DNA of 34,681 nucleotides from Microbacteriaceae bacterium PS02067 (GTDB taxonomy: Bacteria; Actinomycetota; Actinomycetes; Actinomycetales; Microbacteriaceae), in assembly GCA_029960085.1 (NCBI GenBank), contig JASCPG010000034.1, forward strand, positions 1-34,681, in the 5' to 3' direction. The translations under genes were made by a program, and so were the position numbers. The notes under the pieces are model-generated. The model was not told the origin of the DNA. It saw only the letters and a program-made list of their open reading frames with translations, and ran no database searches. Shown piece by piece: positions 11,462-14,462 of this stretch; within the stretch, counting starts at the first letter, position 1, and each line of letters opens with the position of its first letter.

Positions 11462-12121
11462 TCAGCGGCGCAGGACGCGGCGGCCGAGCGCGTTGCCGAC
11501 CAGTTGCACGATCTGCACGATCACGATGATGATGAGCACCGCCGCCCAGGTGACCCACGGATTGAACTGCTTGAACCCGAAGTTGATCGCGAACTGACCG
11601 AGTCCACCGGCGGCCACGACGCCGGCCATCGCGGTCATGTCGATGAGTGCGACGACGATGAACGTGTACCCGAGGATCAGGGGCCCGAGAGCCTCGCGCG
11701 GGACGAGACGGAAGAGGATGCGCGCGCGGCTGGCGCCGGCCGCGCGGGCCGCTTCGATGACCCCGGGGCGCACGGTGAGCAGATTCTGCTCCACGATGCG
11801 GCTGATCGCGAAGAGCGACGCGATGGCGATCGCGAAGATCGCGAACGGGGCACCGATGCCGGGCAGGCCCAGCCCGCGTGCCAGGGGCTGAACGGCGGCG
11901 AGCAGGATGATGAACGGGATCGGCCGGAACGTGTTCACGATGACGTTCAGGACGCCGAAGACAGCGCGCTGCGGGAAGAGGCTCCCCGCGCGGGTCGCAT
12001 ACAGCGCCATGCCGAGGATGAGGCCGGCGAGCCCGCCCAGGATGAAGCCCGACGTGGCGACGTAGAGCGTTTCGAGGGTCGCGTCCCACAGTTCGGGGAG
12101 CAGGTCGATGAGCCTATCCAC
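11462..12121 (-). CDS. metI: Methionine ABC transporter permease
   Basis: Membrane subunit of the MetNIQ importer for D/L-methionine. 219 residues with about five membrane helices (FILGGLAGLILGMALY, PIPFIILLAAVQPLA, FAIFAIAIASLFAIS, GVVAAGGLGQ region) and the EAA-type coupling loop VIEAARAAGASRARILFRLV. GTG at 12121 overlaps the last 8 bases of metN (stop TAG 12116-12114), indicating tight translational coupling. No better start exists: the upstream in-frame sequence is antisense-like and lies inside metN. Confidence 0.93.
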   Translation of the reverse strand: MDRLIDLLPELWDATLETLYVATSGFILGGLAGLILGMALYATRAGSLFPQRAVFGVLNVIVNTFRPIPFIILLAAVQPLARGLGLPGIGAPFAIFAIAIASLFAISRIVEQNLLTVRPGVIEAARAAGASRARILFRLVPREALGPLILGYTFIVVALIDMTAMAGVVAAGGLGQFAINFGFKQFNPWVTWAAVLIIIVIVQIVQLVGNALGRRVLRR

Positions 12122-13151
12122 GGGTGCCCTCCTCGGTGAGCTCGGCGAAGGCCGATGCGGTGGCGAGCGCACGGTCCACGGCATCCGCCTCGCCCGTGAG
12201 AGCGAGCGTGAGATGGCCGAAGACGCGCCCGCGGATGTCGTTGATGCCGCCGTGGACGACCTCGAACCGCACCCCGTGCGTCGAGAGCGCCGCGAACACG
12301 TCGGCCTGTGCGGCAGCGCCTTCGCGGACGTCGAGAGTGACGATGCGGCCGGGATGGCGGGAGCGGAGCGTCGCGAGGTCGTCGCCGGTCGGGACGTCCT
12401 CGATGATGCTCGACACGAATCGGGCAGTGGCGGCGTGCCGCGGGGCCGAGAGGATGTCGAAGACGGCGCCCTCCTCGATGATGCGGCCGTGCTCCATGAC
12501 GACGACGCGGTCGGCGAGGGTGCGGATGACATCCATCTCGTGGGTGATCACGAGGATCGTGACGCCGAGCTCGACGTTGACGCGCTTGAGGAGGCTGAGG
12601 ACCTCCGCGGTGGTGTCGGGGTCGAGGGCGCTCGTGGCCTCGTCCGCGAGGAGGATGCGTGGGCTCGTGGCGAGGGCGCGGGCGATGCCGACGCGCTGCT
12701 TCTGCCCGCCGGAGAGCTGCTCGGGGTAGTTGCCCGCCTTGTCGCCGAGGCCGACGAATTCCAGCAGCTCCGCAACGCGGGCGCGGACCTCGGCGCGGGA
12801 GCGTCCCGCGACTTCGAGAGGGTAGGCGACGTTGCCGGCCACGGTGCGGGAGTCGAACAGGTTGAACTGCTGGAAGATCATTCCGATATCGCCGCGCAGG
12901 CGCCGCAGCCCCCGCTCGCCGAGGCGGGTGATGTCGACCCCGTCGACTTCGACCGTGCCGGAGGTGGGCGTCTCGAGCGCGTTGACGAGGCGCAGGACGG
13001 TGGACTTGCCCGCACCCGAGTACCCGATGATGCCGCAGATCTCTCCCGCAGCGATCTCGAGGGTCACGTCATCGACGGCCGTCACGGGCTGCGCGTCGCG
13101 CGTCGCGGCGGGGAACGTCTTGGTCACGCCACTCAGGCGGATGAGGGTCAT
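12114..13151 (-). CDS. metN: Methionine ABC transporter ATP-binding protein
   Basis: ATPase subunit of the methionine importer, 345 residues. Walker A GYSGAGKST (43-51), Q-loop IFQQFNLF, signature QLSGGQKQR, Walker B ILLADEATSALD and switch ITHEMDV are intact. The C-terminal 80 residues (RIVTLDVREGAAAQADVFAAL, IRGRVFGHLTLAL) form the NIL domain that in E. coli MetN binds methionine and inhibits transport when the cell is replete. ATG at 13151 is preceded by AGGAGG. It is separated from metQ by 67 nt containing a long hairpin. Confidence 0.95.
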   Translation of the reverse strand: MTLIRLSGVTKTFPAATRDAQPVTAVDDVTLEIAAGEICGIIGYSGAGKSTVLRLVNALETPTSGTVEVDGVDITRLGERGLRRLRGDIGMIFQQFNLFDSRTVAGNVAYPLEVAGRSRAEVRARVAELLEFVGLGDKAGNYPEQLSGGQKQRVGIARALATSPRILLADEATSALDPDTTAEVLSLLKRVNVELGVTILVITHEMDVIRTLADRVVVMEHGRIIEEGAVFDILSAPRHAATARFVSSIIEDVPTGDDLATLRSRHPGRIVTLDVREGAAAQADVFAALSTHGVRFEVVHGGINDIRGRVFGHLTLALTGEADAVDRALATASAFAELTEEGTRG

Positions 13152-13218: not shown

Positions 13219-14127
13219 TCACTGGTTGGCGCGGATCTCGTCCTCGGTCTTCTTGAGGGAGTCGAGGAGGTCGCTGACCGGCGTCTTCAGGAGCACGGCG
13301 GACCCGCCGGCGGCCTCCTGCACGCCGTCCTGCACGGCCTTGGTGTCCTGGTAGATCTTCACGAGCTTCAGGTAGGTCGGGTTCTCGGCATCCGCAGCGC
13401 GCGCGGCAAAGATGTTGATGTACGGGAACGCGGTGGGGTCGGCGGGGTCGTCCTGCGCGAGCAGCTGGTCGGGGGTGAGCCCCGACTTGGTCACGAAGTC
13501 GTTGTTGACGACGGCGCCGGCGAAGTCGGGGAGCGACGACGCGGTGAAGTCGGCGGCGACCGCCTCGACCTTGACCTTGGAGCCGGGCTCGATGTCGGCG
13601 GTCGTGGAGAACACCGACCCGCCGTCCTTGAGCTCGATGAGCTTCGCCGACTGCAGCACGAGGAGCGCCCGGGCCTGGTTCGACTCGTCGTTCGGGACGG
13701 CGATCGTCTCGCCGGCGGGGATGTCGTCGACCTTCTTGTACTTCGTGGAGTACAGGCCCAGCGGGTAGATCGCCGTCGCACCGATCGGCACGAGGGTGTC
13801 GTTCGCCTTCACGTTGTAGGTGGCGAGGTAGATGATGTGCTGGAACTGGTTGAGGTCCAGCTCACCGGCCGCGAGTGCGGGGTTCGGCTGGTCGTACGAG
13901 TCGAAGTCGACGATGTCGACGGTGATGCCCTCCTTGGCCGCGGCCTCCTTGTAGGTGGCCCAGTACGGGTCGCCCGCTCCGACGACGCCGATCTTGACCG
14001 GCTTGCTCGGGTCGGCGTCGCCCGTCGAGGCGGGGGACGCGTTCGACGCGCAGGCGGCGAGGGCCAGCACGAGCGGGACGGCGAGGGCCGCGAGCAGGGA
14101 CTTCGCGGTGAGGGATCGGCGGGACAT
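13219..14127 (-). CDS. metQ: Methionine-binding lipoprotein
   Basis: Substrate-binding lipoprotein of the methionine importer, 302 residues. N-terminal signal peptide with lipobox LALAAC (Cys near residue 26). The NlpA/MetQ fold is recognisable from KIGVVGAGDPYWATYKEAA, VDIVDFDSYDQPNPALAAGELDLNQFQH (two adjacent segments), YPLGLYSTKYK, AVPNDESNQARALLVLQ and NAFV-equivalent NNDFVTKSGL. ATG at 14127 follows AAAGGAG (14136-14142) with 8-nt spacing. It is first in metQNI and is preceded by a structured 5' UTR described separately. Confidence 0.95.
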   Translation of the reverse strand: MSRRSLTAKSLLAALAVPLVLALAACASNASPASTGDADPSKPVKIGVVGAGDPYWATYKEAAAKEGITVDIVDFDSYDQPNPALAAGELDLNQFQHIIYLATYNVKANDTLVPIGATAIYPLGLYSTKYKKVDDIPAGETIAVPNDESNQARALLVLQSAKLIELKDGGSVFSTTADIEPGSKVKVEAVAADFTASSLPDFAGAVVNNDFVTKSGLTPDQLLAQDDPADPTAFPYINIFAARAADAENPTYLKLVKIYQDTKAVQDGVQEAAGGSAVLLKTPVSDLLDSLKKTEDEIRANQ

Positions 14128-14135
14128 GAGTGGTG

Positions 14136-14213
14136 CTCCTTTGGGTCAGGGCACCGCGTCGGCGCGGAGGGCACAGCTGACCTGGCTGTCCGCGCTCGCC
14201 TCATCGCGGTGCC
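14136..14213 (-). promoter_or_regulatory. Pseudoknot-capable 5' UTR of metQ, candidate methionine/SAM-responsive element
   Basis: The metQ leader folds into three stacked helices: P1 GGCACCGCG (14213-14205) with 14158-14150; P2 GCGCGGA (14195-14189) with 14168-14162; P3 CAGC (14188-14185) with 14177-14174. The P3 loop GGUCA (14182-14178) can pair with UGACC (14148-14144) just before the Shine-Dalgarno AAAGGAG (14142-14136). A TAGCGT box at 14220-14225 predicts transcription starting at 14213, the first base of P1. The core of the common S-box (GGCAACC) is absent. The gene downstream makes methionine or SAM the obvious ligand candidates, but ligand binding is inference. Confidence 0.55.
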
Positions 14214-14219
14214 ACTTCG

Positions 14220-14225
14220 ACGCTA
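14220..14225 (-). promoter_or_regulatory. -10 box TAGCGT for metQNI
   Basis: TAGCGT on the minus strand, 6 nt before the predicted transcription start at 14213. The -35 region is not clear. Confidence 0.5.
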
Positions 14226-14350
14226 GGCGGACGCGCGCGAGGCCTTCGAATCGGGCGTAACACGGCGACACCGGATGCCGTCACGACGTGCGGATCGGGC
14301 GATCCGCCGTGGCCAGGGGCGGCTGGTTCGCGGCAGGCATCCGAACCCTG

Positions 14351-14386: not shown

Positions 14387-14462
14387 GCCGCCCTAGCTCA
14401 GTCGGCAGAGCATTTCACTCGTAATGAAAAGGTCAAGGGTTCGATTCCCTTGGGCGGCTCCA
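14387..14462 (+). tRNA. tRNA-Thr (anticodon CGU)
   Basis: Complete cloverleaf: acceptor GCCGCCC with GGGCGGC, D-arm GCTC/GAGC, anticodon stem TTTCA/TGAAA with loop CTCGTAA (anticodon CGT at 14420-14422), T-arm AAGGG TTCGATT CCCTT. The CCA end is encoded (14460-14462). The next protein gene starts 2 nt later. Confidence 0.97.

Follow-up and report, generated by a model that had tools for sequence, protein, structure and literature searches.

Riboswitches of the SAM-II, SAM-V and SAM/SAH types are compact leaders that form H-type pseudoknots, in which a loop pairs near the Shine-Dalgarno sequence (SD), and the SAM clan (SAM-I, SAM-IV and SAM-I/IV) shares GGCAACC, which we take to be its core motif. 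SAM-IV (RF00634) carries a pseudoknot strand, PK-2, at its 3′ end (PMC6890682). SAM-VI, which precedes metK in Bifidobacterium, has three stems around a three-way junction, exerts control at the level of the SD and has a stem at its 5′ end (P0) that competes with P1 (PMC6914780).

The leader described here lies in a window of 34,681 nucleotides, the whole stretch of DNA that was analysed. It occupies positions 14213..14136 of the minus strand, directly before metQ, the first gene of metQ-metN-metI, whose AUG is at 14127-14125. An initial annotation had called it a candidate new class of SAM or methionine riboswitch. Its features are as follows, in 5′ to 3′ order.

14220..14225, minus strand: −10-like TAGCGT, 6 nt before the start of P1
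14205..14213, minus strand: P1 5′ strand, GGCACCGCG; pairs 1, 3 and 4 change on both sides
14196..14204, minus strand: J1/2, AUGAGGCGA, the conserved core drawn unpaired; family sequence A N G A R G C G A
14189..14195, minus strand: P2 5′ strand, GCGCGGA; six of the seven P2 pairs change on both sides
14169..14188, minus strand: apical part, CAGCCAGGUCAGCUGUGCCC, with the loop GGUCA(G) at 14182-14177
14162..14168, minus strand: P2 3′ strand, UCCGCGC, pairing with 14195-14189 (7 bp); followed by CGA
14150..14158, minus strand: P1 3′ strand, CGCGGUGCC, pairing with 14213-14205 (9 bp)
14144..14149, minus strand: tail CUGACC, the complement of the loop GGUCAG; the whole tail up to the SD reads CUGACCC
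14136..14142, minus strand: SD, AAAGGAG, assigned from sequence; followed by CACCACUC and AUG
13219..14127, minus strand: metQ, methionine-binding lipoprotein (class 1); PF03180 above cut-off
12114..13151, minus strand: metN, ATPase with a C-terminal NIL domain; PF00005 and PF09383 above cut-offs
11462..12121, minus strand: metI, permease; PF00528 above cut-off; its 5′ end overlaps the end of metN

The best NCBIfam matches are MetQ/NlpA and methionine transporter models, all under their curated cut-offs: TIGR00363 for the metQ product, TIGR02314 for the metN product and NF008049 for a longer open reading frame of metI, whose GTG start is our choice from the reading frame. tRNA genes adjoin metQ in the window (14387-14459, plus strand) and at loci L172, L173, L176, L180, L184 and L187.

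No SAM or SAH family was matched in Rfam. Over the whole window only two tRNAs reached gathering scores, and at E ≤ 10 the stretch 14080-14330 matched only P5 sRNA (E 2.7) and sucA (E 7.2), both far below threshold, with no match to the SAM clan (SAM-I, SAM-IV and SAM-I/IV); nor did the leader match SAM-II, SAM-V or SAM/SAH. Searches with 13 divergent members of the family at E ≤ 5 returned tRNAs and four sub-gathering matches, and no SAM family. GGCAACC, reported missing by the initial annotation, is indeed absent from the window leader and, by eye, from 69 distinct leaders. Neither SAM-I nor SAM-IV (the latter searched with stricter filters) was found in the source genome. SAM-IV occurs in 13 of 198 Microbacterium genomes, none of them in our class-1 list, an observation to which we attach no statistical weight, and it precedes metQ in Arthrobacter sp. 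Edens01 (L068, 1255-1373, plus strand), as seen among the 20 of 43 loci L047-L089 that were scanned. A possible likeness of J1/2 to guanidine-III was dropped, there being no Rfam match. The motif is not named in the accessible parts of PMC11109978, PMC2864571, PMC6914780 and PMC6890682 or in literature listings.

The architecture of the leader also sets it apart. SAM-II, SAM-V and SAM/SAH consist of a single hairpin and a pseudoknot, whereas the Microbacterium leader combines a junction strand of 9 nt with two or three helices. SAM-IV resembles it in its metQ context (Arthrobacter sp. Edens01) and in having a 3′ pseudoknot strand (PMC6890682), and differs in its 116 positions, two pseudoknots and P5. 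The likeness to SAM-VI lies in an actinobacterial methionine-cycle gene, a three-way junction as predicted for many divergent members but not for the window, a possible 5′ stem that competes with P1 and probable control at the SD (PMC6914780). SAM-VI differs in having its AUG within P1 and an SD that connects P1 to P3, whereas in the Microbacterium leader both lie downstream of P1. The distance from P1 to GGAG is 8-15 nt in 66 leaders out of 69 and 25-27 nt in the remaining three, a placement of the SD unlike that in SAM-VI and SAM-III.

A search with MetQ gave 80 loci. The top 37 (L010-L046) are all Microbacterium-type, and every one carries the core of the leader (37/37); the core was not found at the other 43 (41 from other genera, and Microbacterium L061 and L088), save for three loose pattern matches (L066, L071 and L084) that lack the surrounding structure and were rejected. 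Our survey of the genus covered 366 genomes, 214 of them with MetQ at E ≤ 1e-60. Class 1 comprises the 74 genomes with a match at E ≤ 1e-118, the next match being at 8e-113 and the listed ones beyond it 59-64% identical. The leader is present in all 74; 46 were recovered with model R1, metQ being confirmed, and 28 were fetched by the position of MetQ alone. It is absent from all 12 leaders of the other metQ class that were read (L191-L202). These have a different, very short leader, commonly about GAGUCCCCCAAGAGAGGAAC before the AUG, which is itself conserved. The core pattern is matched by every one of the 65 rows that were reached by way of the protein only (37 plus 28, some genomes counting twice because they are present in two collections), so the conservation was not produced by the search. 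The collections overlap, and the 112 leaders gathered reduce to 69 distinct ones.

Of the 62 matches to model R1 in the 366 genomes, 46 are the metQ leaders; the other 16, with no metQ in the fetched stretch and coding-like by eye, were treated as chance (L135 at 46.1 bits, the rest at 33.7 bits or less). Ten weak R1 matches in other genera, none with metQ, were also set aside. Model R3, run on 398 genomes at the family level, matched in two genomes only, both Microbacterium, and also missed the known leader of G045. The source genome holds one significant match to the leader model and two more at E 0.67 and 0.85; neither a second copy nor another gene context was seen in this genome or in the R3 scan, which misses some true members. 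A DNA search with the whole leader reached close species only. One locus labelled Stenotrophomonas maltophilia (L022, JACEFY010000118.1) has a Microbacterium-type metQ and leader and is probably a contaminant or mislabelled contig. As far as these surveys reach, the family appears to be a structured RNA found in Microbacterium only, and before class-1 metQ only.

The core CCGCGAnGARGCG is nearly fixed over the 69 distinct leaders: positions 2, 5-9, 12, 15 and 16 are invariant, positions 10 and 17 are the same in 67 and position 13 in 61. The pattern used for collecting fixes positions 5-9, 12, 15 and 16, yet all 112 candidates passed it. C8 is held by more than pairing in P1, because it is invariant even though its P1 partner is non-standard in 8 of 61 aligned members.

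Covariation of the helices was assessed with and without a structural alignment. Covariance model R2, derived from 8 rows of a single lineage, places 61 of the 69 leaders (its own 8 rows included) above the first chance match, and its search lists 68 of 69 among 87 matches at E ≤ 1. The resulting alignment, A6, comprises 61 leaders (L034 aligned in part only) and omits L045, L148, L165, L172, L176, L186, L189 and L190, whose R2 score lies below the first chance match or, for L176, is lacking. In A6, 93.2% of 1,153 cells are paired; none of the 500 shuffles equalled the alignment on any of five measures, and pairing falls to 22-54% when the partners are slid by 1-3 columns. On this structure-fitted alignment, lacking 8 of 69 leaders, both sides change in 15 of 22 pairs (112 cells), and 6 of 22 pairs, two per helix and including P1 pairs 3 and 4, reach E < 0.05 against a tree-aware null in which columns evolved along a FastTree tree. 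When the tree-aware test is set against all column pairs, only 27-61 falls below E 0.05, and some unpaired column pairs, for example 3-138 and 4-135, score as high as P1 pairs.

For the alignment-free permutations, one random member was taken from each of 20 clusters, and medians were formed over 20 draws. A median of 0 of 1,000 permutations was as good as the real pairing for P2. The value for P1, 11 of 1,000, flatters the pairing, most 3′ strands having been chosen for complementarity; with the 3′ strand left free it is 27.5-38 of 1,000, and another fairer form gives 139-331 of 5,000. Ten of eleven other pairings tested in this way lacked support; neither J1/2 with the tail, arm or SD region nor the P1 strands with the tail or SD region were supported across the 20 clusters, and the SD region with the arm (24 of 1,000, uncorrected for 14 tests) is borderline at best. 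Three groups of 24, 16 and 17 members (57 of 69) were picked by eye. Within the group of 24, the window subgroup, P1 hardly varies and covariation of P2 is not significant (1,321 of 10,000 permutations as good); the support for the helices comes from members more distant than these.

The predicted folds differ across the family. The window leader forms one long arm, in which the apical part replaces the end of P2 and the P3 of other members, whereas many divergent members are predicted to form a three-way junction that runs from P1 through J1/2, P2 and P3 back to P1, all three helices of which covary. Helices of 9, 7 and 4 bp, stacked coaxially, had been described for the window. P1 (9 bp) and P2 (7 bp) are recovered; the 4-bp apical stem CAGC/GCUG (14188-14185 with 14177-14174) is possible, and the minimum free energy (MFE) fold shows the apical part otherwise. 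The stacking is doubtful: the tail starts 0-1 nt after P1, so the helices could hardly form one straight coaxial rod if loop and tail pair. Nor does a single rod fit as the general shape, given the three-way junctions predicted in many divergent members. The 86-nt leader has an MFE of −39.7 kcal/mol, the mean of 200 shuffles being −31.9 (z −2.25; 6 of the 200 are as good), and such a predicted folding energy, taken alone, is moderate evidence for structure.

The other element of the original model was a pairing of the loop GGUCA with UGACC just upstream of the SD. The complement is present (14148-14144; 6 bp with the next G/C counted) and the pairing has support across the family, but covariation is missing in the window subgroup. 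Family-wide, a median of 4 of 1,000 permutations was as good (20 clusters); a looser test that includes the end of the P2 5′ strand was weaker (32-180 of 5,000). Of 1,000 shuffled tails, 14 equalled the window complement, and 22 of 69 members, the window included, reach 5% in this test. Covariation of loop and tail is significant in the divergent group (32 of 10,000) and not in the window subgroup (24 leaders; 853 of 10,000) or the L026 group (9,438 of 10,000). In other lineages loop and tail differ in sequence and still match: they read GUGGAUCG/CGAUCCAC across much of the L026 group, GUCGUCAG/CUGACGAC in L185, where the last two bases of P1 are used, GGUCGUC/GAUGAUC in L142 and GGUAGUC/GACUAUC in L188 (all lengths by eye). 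The complement is weak or absent in many of the nearest relatives of the window, and the helix is nearly absent in the close relatives L016-L018, L020, L024 and L025. The leader of L010 is near-identical to window 14213-14136, with GUGACC in place of GUGCCC, which creates another UGACC as a potential competitor of the tail for GGUCA. The loop-tail helix could be a pseudoknot atop P1 or a nested helix beside an alternative 5′ hairpin; a constrained fold of the window gives the latter arrangement.

All but one of the 69 distinct leaders have a TANNNT sequence 5-7 nt upstream of P1, 53 of them at a distance of exactly 6 nt; the exception, L013, has TAGCGC. The RNA therefore very probably begins at P1, judging from these promoter-like sequences, and the original placement of the 5′ end by a −10 box agrees with this (TAGCGT, 6 nt upstream). 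Farther upstream, 38-40 nt from P1, 47 of the 69 leaders have a CGATT/CGGTT-like element; by eye, a similar sequence also precedes the other metQ class, and the element may be part of a promoter or operator shared by both. The initial annotation had named unconserved or non-covarying helices and a start excluding the structure as evidence against it; we find helices that covary, a conserved core and an inferred start that coincides with P1.

From these comparisons we conclude that the metQ leader is a real, conserved and structured cis-acting RNA of a family not in Rfam 15. As a structured, conserved and covarying 5′ UTR before a metabolic gene, it has the general makeup of a riboswitch. Our main reading, to which we give a probability of about 0.57, is that this 5′ leader of the metQNI mRNA belongs to a genus-restricted structured family that acts as a translational, riboswitch-like off-switch. 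Comparison places the probable transcription start at P1, shows a fixed junction strand enclosed by P1 and P2, joined by P3 in many divergent members, and shows the tail between P1 and the SD pairing with the arm loop better than chance across the family. A metabolite that signals enough methionine (SAM, SAH or methionine) would bind the junction, P1 and the loop-tail helix would lock, and the adjoining SD would become less open. Without ligand, the P1 5′ strand may pair with the P2 5′ strand (CCGC with GCGG), freeing the 3′ part; this hairpin may, by analogy, resemble the P0/P1 competition of SAM-VI. We infer the switch, its direction and its ligand alike. The CCGC/GCGG pairing, G-U allowed, can form in 61 of 69 members and is missing in 8. 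Of 59 scorable members, 50 are predicted to be more stable with P1, the window by a margin of 8.9 kcal/mol, and 9 with the hairpin, among them seven from the L026 group; the hairpin shows no covariation of its own (302 of 1,000). P1 is not followed by a run of U, and the tail directly adjoins the SD, which makes translation the likelier level of control, and a translational riboswitch is the likeliest mechanism.

SAM or methionine is a plausible ligand, drawn from the gene alone; one genus and one gene give one clue only. The proposal of a SAM or methionine riboswitch class is partly supported, by a conserved, covarying family without an Rfam match, its ligand inferred from that gene. In its full form, a new Microbacterium-specific class with a three-way junction and an arm loop that pairs beside the SD, acting on the methionine importer of a genus in which few genomes have SAM-IV, it is tentative, and we would sooner doubt it than accept it.

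Leaders bound by proteins are known in actinobacteria, and a protein or other trans factor that binds this one and controls the translation or stability of metQ would suit a genus-restricted family with a single gene, in which part of the conserved sequence falls in helix strands. We consider this unlikely; the conserved block includes the 9-nt junction strand, as ligand pockets would. A constitutive leader, whose 5′ stem protects the mRNA from +1 or fixes the level of translation with no sensing, would fit with a P1 whose first base, in 68 of 69 leaders, coincides with the inferred start, with its predicted stability over the alternative hairpin and with the patchy loop-tail helix. A plain protective hairpin, however, needs neither a fixed junction strand nor conserved second and third helices, and we regard this explanation as quite unlikely. 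That the leader is a degenerate SAM riboswitch of the SAM-IV, SAM-I/IV or SAM-VI type is very improbable: no SAM family matched the window stretch at E ≤ 10 or the 13 divergent members at E ≤ 5, the GGCAACC that we take to be the core is absent and the SD lies outside P1, against which stand a three-way junction and possible competing 5′ stem that recall SAM-VI (PMC6914780) and a pairing of loop and 3′ tail that recalls PK-2 of SAM-IV (PMC6890682). Least probable of all is a repressor-bound DNA operator, a palindrome CCGCG-N10-CGCGG just past the start. Its half-sites, CCGC and GCGG with G-U allowed, occur in 61 of 69 members, but their spacing and the second half-site vary (for example in L040, L042, L177, L185 and L188) while the RNA helices compensate, and the 3′ strand with which P2 covaries lies farther away.

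The translational off-switch thus remains our preferred reading of a covarying leader that is common to all examined class-1 metQ genes of one genus, and with a single operon and few plausible ligands it is readily testable. Should SAM or methionine prove to be its ligand, the leader would bring a further class into a well-studied set and would explain how methionine import in these actinobacteria is controlled without the usual SAM riboswitches.
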